A stretch of DNA of 37,368 bases from Eubacteriales bacterium (GTDB taxonomy: Bacteria > Bacillota > Clostridia > Oscillospirales > Oscillospiraceae): assembly GCA_030533415.1 (NCBI GenBank), contig JAUNJE010000029.1, forward strand, positions 1 to 37,368, given 5' to 3'. Below the pieces are notes generated by a model that had not been told where the DNA came from, made no database searches, and saw nothing but the letters and a program-made list of their open reading frames with translations. A program made the position numbers and the translations under genes. This document shows positions 35 to 10,157 of this stretch, piece by piece; the stretch's first letter is position 1; every line of letters starts with the position of its first letter.

Positions 35-505
35 TTACCAGCGGAAATGGGCGAATGCCTTGTTGGCTTCAGCCATTTTGTGGACGTCTTCGCGCTTCTT
101 CACGGATGCACCGGTGTTGTTGGCGGCGTCCATGATCTCAGCGGCCAGCCGCTCCTTCATGGTGTTCTCATTGCGGTTGCGGCTGTAGGTGGTGATCCAA
201 CGCAGACCCAGGGTCTGACGCCGGTCGGGACGAACTTCGATAGGCACCTGGTAGGTGGCGCCGCCGACACGGCGGGCCTTCAGCTCCACAGCGGGCATGA
301 TGTTTTCCATCGCCTGCTGGAACACTTCCAGGCCGTTCTTGCCGGTCTTGTTCTCGACAATTTCAAATGCACCATAAACGACTTTCTGGGCAACACCCTT
401 CTTGCCGTCCAGCATGATGCTGTTTACGAGCTTGGTAACCAGAACGGAATTGTAATTGGGATCCGGAAGGACCTCTCTCTTGGGAACATTACCTCTTCTG
501 GGCAC
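35..505 (-). CDS. rpsG: Small ribosomal subunit protein S7
   Basis: S7 nucleates assembly of the 30S head by binding the 3' domain of 16S rRNA. The 156-residue product starts [10 protein letters not shown], carries the conserved [12 protein letters not shown] segment near residue 75 and ends AFAHFRW, all family hallmarks, and the length is the usual one. The frame stays open to an ATG at 523, but that ATG overlaps the AAGGAGG ribosome site. The start chosen is the GTG at 505, six codons further in, which gives the normal S7 N-terminus. It is preceded by rpsL and followed by fusA, so it belongs to the str operon. Translation probably follows from the rpsL transcript and perhaps from a weak internal promoter. 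Confidence 0.97.
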
Positions 506-546
506 TTTGCTTCCCTCCTTCATAATATAATGATTTCATCGGTACT

Positions 547-625
547 CGAAAGTGTGACTTTCGTTGTGCCTGGCCAGAGGTTTTTATACTCTATATAAAA
601 ACGCTGTGGCAAGGCCTTGCCTTGC
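547..625 (-). promoter_or_regulatory. rpsL-rpsG intercistronic region with two hairpins and a possible internal promoter
   Basis: The 163-base gap between rpsL and rpsG is long for this operon. It holds two perfect 7-bp inverted repeats, 609-615 with 619-625 and 547-553 with 557-563. A possible minus-strand promoter (TTGCCA at 607-612, 18-base spacer, TATAAA at 583-588) lies between them. In E. coli S7 represses by binding the rpsL-rpsG intercistronic RNA; whether these hairpins act in that way is inference. Confidence 0.35.
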
Positions 626-668
626 GAAAGGGCGTGGGAATTGTCAAATTTGGTTTTGGCGGAAAGAA

Positions 669-1094
669 TTACTTCTTCTTACCGGCCTTGGGACGCTTCG
701 CACCGTACTTGGAGCGGGACTGCATCCGGTTCTGCACGCCCTGGGTATCCAGAGTGCCGCGGATGATGTGGTAACGGACACCGGGCAGGTCCTTGACACG
801 GCCGCCGCGGATCAGAACCACAGAGTGCTCCTGCAGGTTATGGCCAACACCGGGGATATAAGCGGAAACTTCCATACCATTGGTCAGACGCACACGGGCG
901 ATCTTACGCAGTGCAGAGTTCGGCTTCTTGGGGGTGGTGGTACGGACAGCAGTGCACACGCCGCGCTTCTGGGGGGAAGGCAGGTTGGTAGCCTTGTTCT
1001 CCAGAGTGTTCAGACCTCTCTGCAGAGCAGGAGCGGTGGACTTGTAGGTGACCTGCTGACGGCCATTTCGAACGAGCTGATTAAAAGTAGGCAT
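669..1094 (-). CDS. rpsL: Small ribosomal subunit protein S12
   Basis: S12 sits at the decoding centre of the 30S subunit and governs accuracy. The 141-residue product starts [12 protein letters not shown], carries [12 protein letters not shown] and [13 protein letters not shown], the two loops around the streptomycin site, and ends in a lysine-rich tail. Both key lysines are wild type, so no streptomycin-resistance change is seen. It is longer than the E. coli protein because of an insertion after residue 25, as in other Gram-positive S12 proteins. The start at 1094 has AAAGGAG 6 bases upstream; the longer open frame to 1328 has no better site and overlaps the preceding gene. Confidence 0.97.
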
Positions 1095-1167
1095 CAATTT
1101 TCTCCTTTCTTTTGTTCTCGCCTTCTCGGCGGGTATATATTCTTCGGAAAATCCGACAGAACCAGGG

Positions 1168-1449
1168 TTAATTGACGACGGCTGCCGCCGCAGCGCCCAC
1201 CTCGATACCGCAGGCCCGGCCAAGCTCGGCCATGCTGGGTACCCAGGCGATCTGGATATTATGTTGGCTGCACATTCTCTCGATGCTTCCGGTGATGGCA
1301 GGATCGGCGTTTTCCGCCAGGAAAACATACTTGGCGCGGCCCGCCTCCACAGCCTTTTTCAGCTGTTTGGCACCCACGACCACCTTCTCAGCGGTAAGGT
1401 CGGGGAAAGTGCCGCACTTCGGTATTTTACAATCAATTTTCTTATCCAT
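1168..1449 (-). CDS. L7Ae/L30e/S12e/Gadd45-family RNA-binding protein (YbxF-like)
   Basis: A 93-residue protein of the L7Ae family, which binds kink-turn RNA. The core [18 protein letters not shown], the AENADP segment and the C-terminal [16 protein letters not shown] match the family. In many Firmicutes the ybxF/rplGB gene sits between rpoC and rpsL, as here apart from the intervening pot operon. The ATG at 1449 has no Shine-Dalgarno sequence and lies only 10 bases after a TATAAT box, so the mRNA may be leaderless or nearly so. The open frame extends further upstream, but that part covers the promoter and is not protein-like. Confidence 0.88.
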
Positions 1450-1459
1450 ACAAGATGAT

Positions 1460-1487
1460 ATTATACGCGATTTTTTAGAAAAGTCAA
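1460..1487 (-). promoter_or_regulatory. SigA-type promoter of the L7Ae-rpsL-rpsG-fusA operon
   Basis: TTGACT at 1482-1487 and a perfect TATAAT at 1460-1465 (read on the minus strand) are 16 bases apart. The first base of the L7Ae start codon is 11 positions past the -10 box, which puts the expected transcription start within a few bases of the ATG. The promoter lets the ribosomal-protein genes be expressed independently of rpoBC. Confidence 0.75.
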
Positions 1488-1586
1488 CAAAAACCTGAGA
1501 ATTTTTTTGCTCTGGCGCTGTTTTTTCCCATTTCACCGTTTGTTTTTCAGGAAACCGCGTTTGCCGTAATGAATTCTGATTCTGGT

Positions 1587-1740
1587 TATAGTACCGCAGC
1601 TGCGTTAAGAACTGAATGATACTGATATTCCATTAGAAAGTTTCATTTGCCAGAATGGAACTTTTTAATAGGAAGATCATAATGAGACGGCTTTTGCGGC
1701 GGTTTTCCACAAATGGAAAGCGCCGTTAGGCGGTTTCTTT
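1587..1740 (+). repeat. Dispersed intergenic repeat, copy A, carrying an inserted hairpin
   Basis: The 33 bases at 1587-1619 match 30 of 33 bases of 21011-21043 on the opposite strand. The following block from 1684 (GAGACGGCTTTTG...) also matches the second copy in pieces. Here about 65 bases (1620-1684) are inserted between the two blocks, bounded by the direct repeat AATGA. The insert can fold as an 11-bp stem with one G-U pair (AAAGTTTCATT with AATGGAACTTT). This fills most of the gap between potD and the L7Ae promoter; no protein-coding gene is seen there. Confidence 0.5.
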
Positions 1741-1753
1741 CATGTTGGAAACA

Positions 1754-1788
1754 GGGTGCATATGGTGTGCTTTGCCCCATATGCACCC
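1754..1788. terminator. 12-bp perfect stem-loop downstream of potD
   Basis: Bases 1754-1765 pair perfectly with 1777-1788 around an 11-base loop. It lies 40 bases past the potD stop on the minus strand. No T-run follows on either strand, so it is either a non-canonical terminator or an mRNA 3'-end stabilising hairpin. Confidence 0.4.
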
Positions 1789-1828
1789 GTTTGATACGAT
1801 TTCTTGATTAAACACTTTGTTCGCGCGG

Positions 1829-2935
1829 TCAATTGATTTTAATATTCTCCCAAAGGGTATTCAGGTAGTCCAGCATGCCGGCATCCAGGTTGCGGTAGGC
1901 CTGGGTGTTATACTGTTCGGCAAAGTTGCCAAGCTCGGGATACAAAACCTCCATGGCATCCTCCCCCATATCCTCCTGATAGCCGGCGTTGGAATAGACC
2001 AGGCTGTTAGGGGAGGCATAGTAGGTATACTCCGCATTGGCGATGGCGGGCTCCTCGGAGAGCATATAGTTGATGAAGATTTCCGCCAGCTCCTTGTTCT
2101 GGGCGCAGGAGGGAATGCACATGGCATCCACATAGAAGTTGGTGCGCTCAGGATAGTAGAACTGCAGGTCCACATTCTCCGCCTGGGCATCCGCCATGGT
2201 GAAATAGTCGCCGGCATAGTACGCGCCGATGGCCGCCTCGCCGGACTCCATCATATTGAAGATCTCGTCCATGACCCAGCTGTACACCAAAGGGCGCTGG
2301 CTCAGCAACTCCTCATAGGCCTGGTCCCAGACGGCTTTGTCGGAGGAATTCACATCCAGCCCCAGCTTGTACATAGCGGTACCGAAAGCATCCCGGGCAT
2401 TGTTAAATTGCAGGATGGAACCGGAATATTTGGCGTTCCACATCACATCCCAGCCGCCCACATCGGCTTCGTCCACCACATTGGCATTATAGATCACGCC
2501 CACAATGCCATAGGCATAGGGCACGGTATATTGGTTGTCGGGATCATAGTACAGTCCCCGGAACGCCTCGTCGATATACTGGTAATTGGGAATGTTCCCG
2601 AAATCCAGGGGCAGCAGCATTCCCTCCTCCGCCATCCGGGCAATCATATAATCCGAGGGGATGATCACATCGTAGCTGACCGCTCCGCTGGAAATCTTGC
2701 TGTACATATCCTCGTTGGAGGCAAAGGTGCTGTAATTCACCGTGACCTTCTGGCCGTAAGTCTCCTTGTACCAGCTTTCAAACTCCCGGATCGTATCAAA
2801 GCTGCCCTCGCTGCCATCGGAGATATATTCGCCCCAGTTATAGACATTCAGCGTCAGCGCACCGGAACCGCCGCAGCCAGCCAGGCACAGGCAGAGCGCC
2901 AGTGACAGGGCCAGCGCACAGATTTTTTTCCTCAT
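1829..2935 (-). CDS. potD: Spermidine/putrescine-type ABC transporter, substrate-binding lipoprotein
   Basis: This is the extracellular polyamine-binding subunit of the importer. The 368-residue product has a lipoprotein signal with lipobox LAGC and Cys21, followed by the PotD/PotF start LNVYNWGEYISDGS. The family segments VIIPSDYMIARM and PYAYGIVGVIYN follow. It is the last gene of potA-potB-potC-potD, 23 bases after potC, and is probably the most conserved marker that the substrate is a polyamine. Exact substrate (spermidine or putrescine) cannot be read from sequence. The ATG at 2935 has an AGGAGG site upstream. Confidence 0.94.
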   Translation of the reverse strand: MRKKICALALSLALCLCLAGCGGSGALTLNVYNWGEYISDGSEGSFDTIREFESWYKETYGQKVTVNYSTFASNEDMYSKISSGAVSYDVIIPSDYMIARMAEEGMLLPLDFGNIPNYQYIDEAFRGLYYDPDNQYTVPYAYGIVGVIYNANVVDEADVGGWDVMWNAKYSGSILQFNNARDAFGTAMYKLGLDVNSSDKAVWDQAYEELLSQRPLVYSWVMDEIFNMMESGEAAIGAYYAGDYFTMADAQAENVDLQFYYPERTNFYVDAMCIPSCAQNKELAEIFINYMLSEEPAIANAEYTYYASPNSLVYSNAGYQEDMGEDAMEVLYPELGNFAEQYNTQAYRNLDAGMLDYLNTLWENIKIN

Positions 2936-2958
2936 TTCATTTCCTCCTTGATATTTGA

Positions 2959-3786
2959 CTATTTTGCCGCCTTTTTCCTGACCTTTTCCTCTTTCAGCTT
3001 CCGGCGGTCCTCGTTGTCCACCAAATTGCTCACCAGCAGCAGCGACATGGTCACAAAGAAGATAATGGTGGCCAGCGCGTACATTTTCGGCGTAACTGTT
3101 TTTTTCGTCATGCCGTAGATTCGAATTGGCAGGGTTTCAAAGCCGTTTCCGGCAGTAAAGTAGCTGATGACGAAATCATCCAGAGACAGGGTAAAGGCCA
3201 TGATGGCTCCCGTAATGATGCCCGGCAGGATCTCGGGCAGCTCCACCTTGAGAAATGCCCGCATCGGCGTGCAGCCCAGGTCCATCGCCGCCTCCGGCAG
3301 GGCCTTGTCCATCTGCTGGAGCTTCGGCAGCACCTGCAAGATCACATAGGGCAGGCAGAAGGTCACATGGGCGATGAGCATGGTCCAGAAGCTCAGGCTG
3401 GTAGATGCCCCAAAAAGCCTGCCCACAAACACAAACATGAGCATCAAAGAAATGCCGGTGATGATATCCGGGTTGGTCATGGGGATGTCCGTAACGGTAT
3501 TCATAGCCGTCCGGTACCATTTGCTGCGAAGCTTATTGATGCCCACTGCCGCCGCGGTCCCCATAACGGTGGAGATCGCCGTGGCGGAAAGGGCCAGGGT
3601 GAAGGTATTTTTCACCGCATGCAGGGTGTTGCGGTCATTCAAAAGCTCTCTGTACCACCGCAGGGAAAAGCCGGAATACACGGACAGGCTTTTCGCCTCA
3701 TTGAAGGAATAGATCAGCATGACTACAATGGGCGCAAACAGGAATGCGAGAATGATTCCGGTATAAATCTTGGCATGGAGTTTCAT
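2959..3786 (-). CDS. potC: Spermidine/putrescine-type ABC transporter permease
   Basis: The second inner-membrane permease of the PotABCD importer, 275 residues with about six membrane segments. The cytoplasmic EAA loop EAAMDLGCTPMRAF near residue 180 docks on PotA. The start is the ATG at 3786, one base after the potB stop, with GGAGGGG inside the end of potB as ribosome site. An in-frame ATG seven codons earlier lies upstream of that ribosome site and is rejected. The tight junction implies translational coupling. Confidence 0.94.
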   Translation of the reverse strand: MKLHAKIYTGIILAFLFAPIVVMLIYSFNEAKSLSVYSGFSLRWYRELLNDRNTLHAVKNTFTLALSATAISTVMGTAAAVGINKLRSKWYRTAMNTVTDIPMTNPDIITGISLMLMFVFVGRLFGASTSLSFWTMLIAHVTFCLPYVILQVLPKLQQMDKALPEAAMDLGCTPMRAFLKVELPEILPGIITGAIMAFTLSLDDFVISYFTAGNGFETLPIRIYGMTKKTVTPKMYALATIIFFVTMSLLLVSNLVDNEDRRKLKEEKVRKKAAK

Positions 3787-3787
3787 T

Positions 3788-4657
3788 TTAATCCCCTCCG
3801 TAAACATACCGTGTGGTCACATATTTCACCAGCGCCATGGCGGCCAGCAGGATCACCATCAGGATAAAGGCAATGGCTGCCGCAAAATGGAGGTTGTTGG
3901 CGACATACTGACCCTCAATGGCATCACCAATCAGGAAAAATTTACCGTTGCCCAGCTTCTGGGAGATGTAGAACGTGCTGATGGAGGGAATCAGGACCAT
4001 GGTAATACCGGAAACCACACCCGGCATACTCAGGGGGAAGATCACCCTGCGCAGTACGGCAAAACTGCCGCAGCCCAGATCCCGCGCCGCCTCCAGCAGC
4101 CGCACATCCATTTTCGCCATGATGGAATAGATAGGCAGCACCATATAAGGGAAATAGTCATATACCATACCGATGATGACCGCCGTTTCCGTGCCAATGA
4201 TGTGGACCGGCCCCATTCCCAGCGGCTTAAGGAGGTTATTGAGGATACCGGTGTCCTGCAAAATGGTCATCCAGGCATAGGTGCGGATCAGGAAGTTCAT
4301 CCACATGGGGATCATGATCAGCGTCATCATGGTTTTCTGGGTCTGCTCCTTGGCCCTGGCCATGATATAAGCCATGGGATAGCCCAGCAGCAGGCAGATG
4401 AAGGTGGAGATCACCGCCAGCTTGACCGACCGCAGGAAAATCAGCAGGTAGGTGCGGACCTCCTGGGTGGTGCCATCCTCGGCGGTAATGCTGCTGGTGG
4501 CAGTGAAGAAACGGACAAAGTGCTCTGTGGTAAAGGAAAAGCTGTTGTCCGTCAGCGCATAGTAGCCGATAAAAGCCAGGGGCACCAGAATAAACAGCAC
4601 CGCCCAGATGGAATAAGGGGCCAGCGCGGCATGGTAGGTGTTCAGCTTTCGTTTCAT
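3788..4657 (-). CDS. potB: Spermidine/putrescine-type ABC transporter permease
   Basis: The first permease of the polyamine importer, 289 residues. It has a short cytoplasmic N-terminus, about six hydrophobic segments, a large external loop after the first one (about residues 40-70), and the EAA motif [16 protein letters not shown] near residue 190. Its ATG overlaps the potA stop in an ATGA junction (4654-4657), so it is translationally coupled to potA. Confidence 0.94.
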
Positions 4658-5772
4658 TCTTCCGCCTCACTTCCCGGGTCGGACAGCTCATCCAGTTCGC
4701 TGGAGAAGGAGGAGTAATCTCCAAACATGCCGGAATATTTGGACTTTTTCATGATATGAATGGCGTCCGGGTCCAGCTTCAGGCCAATGTGTTCCCCTTC
4801 GTCCGCACTTTCCGTGGTCTGGATCATCCACTTGAAACCGTTAATATCCACAATGATCTCATTGTGAACGCCCATGAAGGTAACAGAGGTAACGGTGCCG
4901 TTAAGCATCCCCTGCTCCACGGGGACAATGTCCACATCCTCCGGACGGACCACCACATCCACCGCTTCGTTTTTTCCGAAGCCGGCATCCAGGCAGGTAA
5001 ACGTATTCCCGGCAAACCGCACCCGGTAGTCCTCCAGCATGACGCCGTCCAGAATATTGCTTTCGCCAATGAAATCCGCCACGAAGGCGTTGACAGGCTC
5101 ATTATAAATGTCAGTGGGCGTTCCGATCTGCTGAATTTTGCCCTCACTCATGACCACAATGGTATCGGACATGGACAGGGCCTCTTCCTGGTCATGGGTC
5201 ACGAAGATAAAGGTGATCCCGGTGCTCTTCTGAATTTTTTTCAATTCCTGCTGCATATCCTTGCGCAGCTTCAGATCCAGCGCACCCAAAGGCTCGTCCA
5301 GCAGCAAAATCCGCGGGTGGCTGATCAGCGCCCTGGCAATGGCCACCCGCTGCTGCTGTCCGCCGGACAGGCTGGTGACCCGGCGTTCGGCAAAGCCGGA
5401 GAGCATCACAAGGGACAGCATTTCATTTACCTTTTCGGTGATTTCCTTTTTGGGGACATGCTTTTCCCGCAGGGGGAAAGCCACATTTTCAAATACGTTC
5501 AGGTGGGGAAACAGGGCGTATTTCTGAAACACGGTATTGACGTTGCGCTTATGGGGCGGTGTGTCGTTGATGCGCTCCCCCATGAATACCACATCGCCGC
5601 TGTCCGGATGTTCAAAGCCGCCGATGATGCGCAGCGTGGTAGTCTTGCCGCAGCCGGAGGGACCAAGCAGGGTGATAAATTCATTGTCGTAGATGTCGAG
5701 GCTGATGCCGTCCAGCACCGTTTCGCCGTCAAATGCCTTGGAGATGTTCTTTAATTCGATGATCTTGTTCAT
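4654..5772 (-). CDS. potA: Spermidine/putrescine-type ABC transporter, ATP-binding subunit
   Basis: The ATPase that drives polyamine import on the cytoplasmic face. The 372 residues contain Walker [10 protein letters not shown] (37-45), the signature [15 protein letters not shown] near residue 135, Walker B ILLLDEP followed by THDQEEA, and a C-terminal TOBE-like domain ([12 protein letters not shown] near residue 270). It ends in an unusual acidic tail (about 20 residues) rich in Ser, Asp and Glu. It is the first gene of the operon; its leader holds a terminator about 40 bases upstream and a long structured RNA, so expression is likely controlled by attenuation or read-through. Confidence 0.95.
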
Positions 5773-5812
5773 ATTCTCTCTCCTATTCTCTCTTCGCCGG
5801 CTCTATAAACGC

Positions 5813-5841
5813 AAAAAAAGCATGCCGCATACGCAGCATGC
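5813..5841 (-). terminator. Intrinsic terminator in the potA leader
   Basis: On the minus strand GCATGC arms (5836-5841 and 5820-5825) with two further inner pairs are followed directly by seven T's (5819-5813). It sits only 40 bases before the potA start. This placement would stop most transcripts from the upstream promoter, or act as a regulated attenuator. A second inverted repeat (TTCGTG...CACGAA) lies just upstream, near 5850-5885. Confidence 0.6.
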
Positions 5842-5959
5842 CACTTGCACTTCGTGATATTCCGGCAAGCGCTTCCGGCACGAAAATACTGAGGTCCCCC
5901 AAAAAACGCCAGGAATCCCGATATTCCACATCCAAAGCATTCACCGAATCACAATGGAA

Positions 5960-6207
5960 TCAGAGTCTATATAGCAAAGATTACTCTTACTACTCTTATT
6001 GACCATTTCACAAGTTTTGCCGCGAGGCCATGGTTTATAGTAACCAACTTATAAAACTGAGCTTTTAACTCAATCAATAAGGCAACAGAAGTTGCCAACC
6101 GCTCACTGCGGTTTTCGGCATTCGACCCGGCTGTCCGTATGGCCTTAGCCGGCAAACTGCCGGCGGTCGTACATCTTGCTTTGGAAAGACTCTTTCCAAT
6201 TGAGACT
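5960..6207 (-). ncRNA. Structured RNA of about 245 nt upstream of potABCD (possible raiA-motif RNA)
   Basis: A promoter ends at 6213 and transcription should begin near 6207 with AGUCUC. A complementary AGACU at 5964-5968 can close a long-range helix. Between them many local stems are visible on the minus strand: TTGGAAA/TTTCCAA, GCCGGCA/TGCCGGC, CGACC/GGTCG, ACCGC/GCGGT and GGCAAC/GTTGCC. That density of compact helices and the absence of a plausible protein mark a noncoding RNA. Size and architecture resemble the clostridial raiA motif, but I cannot confirm that from memory of its consensus. It could instead be a cis-regulatory leader of potA. Confidence 0.6.
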
Positions 6208-6212
6208 TTATA

Positions 6213-6241
6213 AGGATAGCATATTCCTTAAGAATTGTCAA
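6213..6241 (-). promoter_or_regulatory. SigA-type promoter of the structured RNA and pot operon
   Basis: On the minus strand TTGACA (6236-6241) and TATCCT (6213-6218) are separated by exactly 17 bases. It lies downstream of the rpoC hairpins, so the pot operon has its own start rather than depending on rpoBC transcription. Confidence 0.75.
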
Positions 6242-6356
6242 TATATTCTTGTACTTTTGCTTGTTTTTCTAACTTTTATATTCCGTTTCCGCTGCGATAT
6301 TGTTCAAAATGCAACATCTGCGCCCCTGCCGGGAATCCAAAAAGAACCAGTATAAG

Positions 6357-6440
6357 ACGGCCTTGCCCTCCGCAATGGACGCAAAAGGACAAGGCCGTGG
6401 TGGTGTCCCTCCGGGGAAAAGCTTCCTTTTCCCCGGAGGG
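6357..6440 (-). terminator. Two stable hairpins after rpoC
   Basis: A perfect 14-bp stem (6407-6420 with 6427-6440, 6-base loop) begins 22 bases past the rpoC stop. A second stem of 9 bp (6357-6365 with 6390-6398) follows. No long T-run comes directly after either, only TTCTTTTT further on. They probably end or stabilise the rpoBC transcript. Confidence 0.55.
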
Positions 6441-6461
6441 CGTATCAGACGGGCTTTCTCA

Positions 6462-10157
<3,696 letters not shown>

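Follow-up and report, generated by a model that had tools for sequence, protein, structure and literature searches.

The window analysed here, a stretch of 37,368 nucleotides from a Eubacteriales bacterium, carries on its minus strand (6241-5813) a promoter, a folded RNA of ~240 nt and an intrinsic terminator, ahead of the polyamine importer genes potABCD. Comparison with homologous loci makes it quite probable that potABCD is transcribed with this RNA as its 5′ leader, most likely a large transcription-terminating OFF polyamine riboswitch with spermidine as the likeliest ligand. The locus is laid out as follows, in the direction of transcription.

6213 to 6241, minus strand: sigma-A type promoter, TTGACA (6241-6236), 17 nt, TATCCT (6218-6213), with 10 of 12 consensus positions.
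Near 6206, minus strand: predicted transcription start.
5960 to 6172, minus strand: conserved RNA core, matched by the covariance model R1 at 186 bits.
5813 to 5846, minus strand: intrinsic terminator, hairpin 5842-5819 and T run to 5813.
4654 to 5772, minus strand: potA, spermidine/putrescine ABC transporter ATP-binding protein (NF043075 at 563.7 bits and TIGR01187, both above cut-off).
3788 to 4657, minus strand: potB-like permease (best family PotB, under its curated cut-off).
2959 to 3807, minus strand: potC-like permease (best family PotC, under its curated cut-off).
1829 to 2935, minus strand: potD-like substrate-binding protein (best family PotD, under its curated cut-off).

The initial annotation had placed here a TTGACA-17-TATCCT promoter, an intrinsic terminator about 40 bases before potA and a polyamine importer behind it, and each of these is found: the terminator ends ~40 nt ahead of the potA ATG at 5772, potA is assigned by two models over their cut-offs, and the potB-, potC- and potD-like genes come next. 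In 89 of the 118 homologous loci listed (window included), a promoter of at least 10/12 positions is present between 110 and 20 nt ahead of the core, compared with 3% of shuffled stretches. The site is an unusual one for an importer. Leader and potABCD (window 35-6462) lie between a minus-strand ORF ending at 6462, which we take from its translation to be rpoC, and ORFs that, likewise from their translations, seem to encode an L7Ae-type protein and the ribosomal proteins S12 and S7.

The segment 5945-6206 has a folding energy of -91.4 kcal/mol (z = -4.98), and none of 200 shuffles was equally stable, in agreement with the earlier claim of a structured RNA, here of ~240 nt. A core-pattern scan of a species-genome collection returned at least 118 stretches. 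From 51 diverse sequences a structure was written by anatomy, giving the covariance model R1 of 204 positions; 29 of 129 loci had been left out of the first alignment for want of a recognised 3′ end or of room. In the window, the helices of the R1 core and the flanking closing helix P1 are as follows.

6173 to 6206, minus strand: 5′ strand of closing helix P1 (P1a 6192-6187, P1b 6180-6173), alternatively a local hairpin, UUGGAAAGAGUCUUUCCAA.
6169-6165/6127-6123, minus strand: core helix P3.
6096-6091/6086-6081, minus strand: core helix P5.
6080-6074/6002-5996, minus strand: core helix P6.
6056-6047/6015-6006, minus strand: core helix P8.
6045-6032, minus strand: core hairpin P9.
6028-6019, minus strand: P10 of the core.
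Near 5995/5968, minus strand: core hairpin P11.
5952 to 5981, minus strand: 3′ strand of closing helix P1, with AUCUUUGC (5981-5974), AGACUC (5968-5963) and UUCC...AUUG to 5952.

Over the 51 sequences, the 57 pairs of the model are formed in 92.6% of 2803 cells, and 29 pairs show changes on both sides. None of 500 shuffles gave counts as high on any of five measures, and slid partners were paired in 34-46%. The covariation across homologs that had been named as a check on the RNA is thus present, with a weak outcome in a stricter tree-based null of our own design, where E < 0.05 was reached by one pair only, in P3, and the other four pairs with E ≤ 1 were all in P4. Most double changes fall in P3, P4 and P5. 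P6, P8 and P11 are almost invariant, and are therefore consistent with the structure but weakly tested, and P10 is variable and poorly aligned, its pairs being formed in 50-71% of cells. Because the structure was derived from the 51 sequences themselves, the later genomes are the better control for R1.

A closing helix had been suggested between AGUCU near 6207 and AGACU near 5966. The helix is real; its register differs, the main partners being 6192-6187 (GAGUCU) with 5968-5963 (AGACUC), and 6180-6173 with 5981-5973. In the 115 loci listed, the 5′ flank pairs with its own 3′ flank at -23.8 kcal/mol, compared with -18.7 kcal/mol for swapped flanks (0/5000). P1b (AGCAAGAU with AUCUUUGCU) shares bases inside hairpin P11, so that P1b and P11 together would probably form a pseudoknot. 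In a permutation test of P1b (2000 permutations; letters from 99 loci, 59 distinct, with 16 of 115 dropped as no partner was found by motif), pair 5 exceeded the best permutation, pair 6 equaled it, and pairs 7-9 did not exceed it. A helix 12 drawn at first (AGUAA with UUGCU) was given up: it is paired in 96.4% of cells but has few double changes, and the P1b partner in the 5′ flank is better supported.

Several loci carry natural variants of the fold. P9 is doubled in tandem in L030:6339-6564 and L036:4554-4774 and absent from L055, L135 and L148, and P7 is absent from L104 and L108; these insertions and deletions hint at which parts are dispensable. In L103:5837-6191 (minus strand), a long insert inside the P8 arm splits the R1 match into two pieces (91.3 and 49.1 bits), with a PotA gene still downstream. 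Unusually long R1 matches also occur in L133 (345 nt) and L142 (275 nt).

In an Rfam 15 scan of the whole window, the sole match besides a tRNA was RF02440, within the RNA core.

6115 to 6169, minus strand: match to RF02440 (SpF59_sRNA / ldcC RNA), 69.5 bits over model positions 1-54 of 54; a 5′ subdomain within the full-length RNA.

The match covers 55 nt of the window end to end and lies above the gathering cut-off of 37.2 bits; conservation in the RNA extends over roughly four times that length. RF02440 was found in 16 of 60 genomes (the window's own and relatives), where conservation continues for ~210 nt. The 54-position Rfam model is a fragment of the longer RNA. It is filed as an sRNA gene, whereas the unit described here consists of 204 model positions together with P1 and a matched terminator, and it lies in cis to polyamine genes. 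The alternative Rfam name suggests that someone has tied RF02440 to ldcC. Within 5760-6460, the only other listing at E ≤ 5 was a Drosophila family at 22.2 bits (cut-off 55), and hence no raiA, SAM or T-box family. raiA, which had been put forward for checking against Rfam, and the SAM families thus drop out at E ≤ 5, and the one family over its cut-off, RF02440, is filed as an sRNA gene.

R1 matches 115 of the 118 pattern loci listed, 114 of them at ≥42 bits, and gave no match in L037, L061 and L091. L038:516-615 (Holdemania massiliensis) has the exact 21-nt core pattern, an R1 score of 27.4 bits and no polyamine gene in the 8-kb locus, and is a relic or a chance occurrence. Named carriers among the matches listed are Paenibacillus, Bacillus, Neobacillus, Faecalibacterium, Blautia, Acidaminococcus and Phascolarctobacterium; a MAG labelled Spirochaetes has a match of 68.8 bits upstream of SpeD and decarboxylase (L087). 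A 2.7-Mb Paenibacillus replicon filed as a plasmid carries a genuine copy (L202, 191.7 bits), ahead of CASDH- and NspC-like ORFs. Carriage by viruses was considered for two viral contigs that matched the core pattern, and was rejected as R1 finds nothing in them.

Genome surveys under strict filters, with few candidates scored per genome, detected R1 in 40 of the 293 genomes from the window's class, 39 of 398 from the Bacillus class (that of Bacillus testis) and 7 of 62 from another class, with at most one match per genome. These later sets are not all independent of the first set (119 loci from the matches listed, 115 distinct RNA sequences), since three genomes in the set of 40 and three in the set of 7 had already turned up earlier, and no fewer than 13 of the 39 Bacillus-class RNAs are >98.5% alike to first-set ones.

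The genes behind the RNA were identified with references named by NCBIfam and placed by tblastn, taking the nearest same-strand downstream hit, so that small intervening ORFs are possible. Among the matches listed in the first set, each of the 116 assessable loci (119 in total, 3 cut by locus ends) has a polyamine gene downstream on the same strand: Orn/Lys/Arg decarboxylase in 40, SpeD in 32, PotA in 26 and carboxynorspermidine synthase in 18. In these loci the median distance from RNA to gene is 150 nt, with three loci beyond 350 nt, and identity to the references goes down to 54% for PotA, 64% for SpeD, 69% for decarboxylase and 83% for the synthase. A polyamine gene likewise follows all 40 R1 matches in the window's class (two <34 bits included), 38 of the 39 in the Bacillus class and 6 of the 7 in the other class, where the exception scores 24.6 bits. 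The Bacillus-class exception, L237, is a streptococcus-like copy: the gene that follows reads as transposase-like, and the fetched stretch has no polyamine gene. L237 is the only assessable match >40 bits, in the loci listed and the later sets, that lacks one.

Three routes are found behind the RNA: decarboxylase/SpeD/SpeE/agmatinase, carboxynorspermidine synthase/NspC, and PotABCD. These different routes share the polyamine pool, with spermidine as the product or cargo that the gene sets have in common. Of the 11 genomes compared within the window's GTDB family, six have the RNA before the importer and no close homolog of the decarboxylase (no match in G000 and G015, matches at 25-29% in the other four), an absence that is not proof because several assemblies are incomplete (88% completeness for G000); in the other five the RNA precedes the decarboxylase, and this enzyme is present at 74-78%.

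An intrinsic terminator between the RNA and the start codon is close to universal, occurring in 113 of the 115 loci listed. In the window, its 5′ arm is complementary to a strand of the RNA core.

6009 to 6025, minus strand: antiterminator strand, made up of the 3′ halves of P10 and P8; complementarity to the 5′ arm of the terminator, -17.9 kcal/mol.
5831 to 5849, minus strand: terminator 5′ arm and lead-in, the partner of 6025-6009 in the duplex with the antiterminator strand.

This complementarity is specific to each locus. Among the loci listed, terminator arms paired with their own RNA at a mean of -15.60 kcal/mol, compared with -13.28 kcal/mol (sd 0.22) for permuted arms (0/5000), and the same held when arms were permuted within gene groups (0/5000); the CASDH group alone showed no difference (own -15.64, same-group swapped -15.55). 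Along the RNA of the loci listed, the duplex profile is lowest over the 3′ strand of P8, with two windows of -15.0 and -15.6 kcal/mol; elsewhere it is -11.4 or weaker in windows reached by at least 20 loci, and two single-locus windows have -12.3 and -12.4.

The result was reproduced in 28 held-out loci <95% alike to the first set (-14.17 against -11.48, sd 0.42, 0/10000; -12.00 when permuted within gene group, 0/10000). The candidates were 22 of an initial 30, eight having been left out as ≥95% alike and three of them identical, together with ten newly fetched; 28 of these 32 were tested, as no terminator was detected in L256 and no recognised anchor in L179, L196 and L255. An initial held-out test with 27 loci had also given 0/10000, with one clear failure (L198, -5.8 kcal/mol). 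A CAAGY motif in the terminator 5′ arm, present in 29 (strict) or 41 (loose) of the 113 loci listed and in 58 and 371 of 2960 control terminators, is enriched over controls but far from general, and was therefore replaced by this motif-free duplex test.

In the window, the minimum free energy (MFE) structure of the full leader consists of aptamer plus terminator (-145.9), and that of a transcript cut after the terminator 5′ arm is the antiterminator fold (-130.6). The latter does not generalise: with cut transcripts the antiterminator is in the MFE structure of only 14 of the 113 loci listed (3% with swapped arms, 1% with shuffled arms). In streptococcus- or enterococcus-like loci, the pairing is somewhat stronger than the shuffled level in L235, L236, L244 and L246 (z between -1.5 and -2.5), weak in L237 (-0.6) and L238 (-1.0), and at the shuffled level in L239-L243 (z -0.4 to 0.3). 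Streptococcus-like L245 has lost the 3′ strand of P8 (no CUUGU) with a decarboxylase gene still downstream, and is perhaps a decaying copy.

We propose the following mechanism. At low ligand, the 3′ strands of P8 and P10 would quit the aptamer and pair with the terminator 5′ arm, and RNA polymerase would read on through the resulting antiterminator into the polyamine genes. With ligand present, the aptamer, including P8, P10 and the closing helix P1, would be held together, allowing the terminator to form and transcription to end before potA, as in an OFF switch. Stabilization of the aptamer is predicted to favor termination because the antiterminator removes strands from it, and, given that genes for making or importing polyamines lie behind, the most straightforward interpretation is that a polyamine exerts feedback repression. 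While the conserved structure, the polyamine gene context, the nearly universal terminator and the locus-specific complementarity of arm and aptamer are read from the sequences, we infer direct binding, the identity of the ligand and the direction of the response.

The RNA has three of the features generally expected of a riboswitch: a conserved structure with covariation, a same-strand position before functionally related genes, and an expression platform with mutually exclusive structures, the exceptions to the last being most streptococcus-like loci and the low MFE count given above. The gene context and the terminator/antiterminator anatomy strongly support the cis-acting leader, predicted to sense a polyamine or related signal, which was one of the two readings initially offered. 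We regard the RNA as real and probably important for regulation, and see in it a strong candidate for a polyamine riboswitch class of wide distribution, the window then holding the form that controls the importer. On balance we favor a fuller version, held with somewhat less confidence, in which the RNA constitutes an uncharacterised, widespread class of riboswitches for spermidine or a close polyamine, with an aptamer of ~240 nt, a long closing helix that partly crosses P11 (likely a pseudoknot) and P8/P10 strands that double as antiterminator, serving as the main sensor of the polyamine pool in many Bacillota. If so, the RNA sits on the importer in bacteria that import and on synthesis operons in those that produce, and RF02440 is a fragment wrongly filed as an sRNA.

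Alternatively, the same leader could act by attenuation, the polyamine state being reported by a protein or some other trans factor that binds it; the same anatomy of structured leader, terminator and antiterminator would then be expected. We consider this unlikely, as the long stretches that are invariant across Clostridia and Bacillales are more in keeping with a pocket for a metabolite than with a small site for a protein, and, as far as nearby genes go, nothing regulator-like occurs in the 25 gene clusters listed. It is also rather improbable that the riboswitch recognizes another compound reporting on the pathway, such as agmatine, arginine, lysine, decarboxylated SAM or an acetylated polyamine. 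Decarboxylase and SpeD are indeed frequent first genes (40 and 32 of the 116 loci listed), but the RNA also precedes the importer in genomes with no close decarboxylase homolog, and the carboxynorspermidine synthase/NspC pair, and what connects all of these loci is the end product.

A standalone trans-acting small RNA of the raiA type, placed ahead of potA by chance, was the other reading initially offered, with raiA as the best guess. In its favor, RF02440 is filed as an sRNA gene, and F59, which we take as the namesake of SpF59_sRNA, is listed as an 82-nt RNA between SP0915 and SP0916 of S. pneumoniae (Mann et al. 2012, PMC3395615); SP_0916 is given as arginine decarboxylase in PMC7531197. 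It is nevertheless highly improbable, as polyamine genes follow on the same strand in nearly every locus and the terminator arm fits the RNA of its own locus. The raiA model RF03072 (cut-off 101.3 bits) gave no match at E ≤ 5 in the region and none in the whole genome; as a positive control, the same model was found in 18 of 98 genomes of the class. The two genomes in both lists, G462 and G477, carry raiA and the new RNA at separate places, and raiA is thus rejected by model and by position. An 11.5-bit R1 match in the raiA locus L203 is AU-rich and scattered, and was taken for noise. A leader-peptide attenuator of the speF type, to which a 62-aa ORF crossing the RNA in the window might point, has practically no chance, as 46 of 51 homologs have no frame open through the core and their lengths spread over all three phases (18, 18, 15), making coding unlikely and in line with the absence of a conserved protein read through the region, and as bases and pairs are what is conserved.

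The RNA differs from the polyamine-related RNAs described so far in the literature examined. The one polyamine riboswitch class described there, a spermidine-binding SAM-I variant with a consensus from 13 representatives (Salvail et al. 2023, PMC10853860), likewise precedes polyamine genes, including ldcC; a SAM-I type aptamer was looked for here, and no SAM family was listed at E ≤ 5 for 5760-6460. Salvail et al. 2023 (PMC10853860) find earlier polyamine-riboswitch claims unconvincing, describe their own class as narrowly distributed, and expect that further polyamine riboswitch classes are surely still to be discovered. The raiA motif (ModT, RF03072; PMC11706538) resembles the present RNA in length (209 model positions), in having its own promoter and in occurring in Bacillota; it is described as acting in trans (PMC11706538, PMC11477304), and its model is negative here. 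The speF and odc1 RNAs (PMC11477304, PMC8632094) are also leaders of polyamine genes, and are set apart by their descriptions, speF as an alphaproteobacterial motif (PMC11477304) and odc1 as a hairpin with a pseudoknot (PMC8632094), and by the lack of any such family at E ≤ 5.

We found no description of the long RNA in the literature searched, which was mostly open-access, so that an earlier description is possible, and 'ldcC RNA' appeared in no listing. Term searches of the accessible text found neither ldcC nor SpF59 in the structured-RNA discovery papers PMC11109978, PMC8632094, PMC6429828 and PMC8040213, and none of the terms looked for in the 2018 TIGR4 transcript map (PMC6296669). As a polyamine riboswitch, an RNA whose only filing is that of a pneumococcal sRNA would gain a regulatory role; present before polyamine genes in many gut and soil bacteria, it resembles a switch for turning off uptake or synthesis genes when polyamines abound. 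The question is directly testable, because the RNA is large and common and L237 alone stands without a polyamine gene among assessable matches >40 bits.

Polyamines bind RNA unspecifically, and binding assays would therefore need strict controls.

In G462, raiA and the new RNA lie ~325 bp apart on opposite strands (L207:2342-2541, minus strand, and 2867-3053, plus strand), flanked by an ORF taken for a hibernation factor and by a decarboxylase operon. In two related genomes, glycine riboswitches occur <500 bases from the RNA (L005:1855-1946 and L008:1108-1200).
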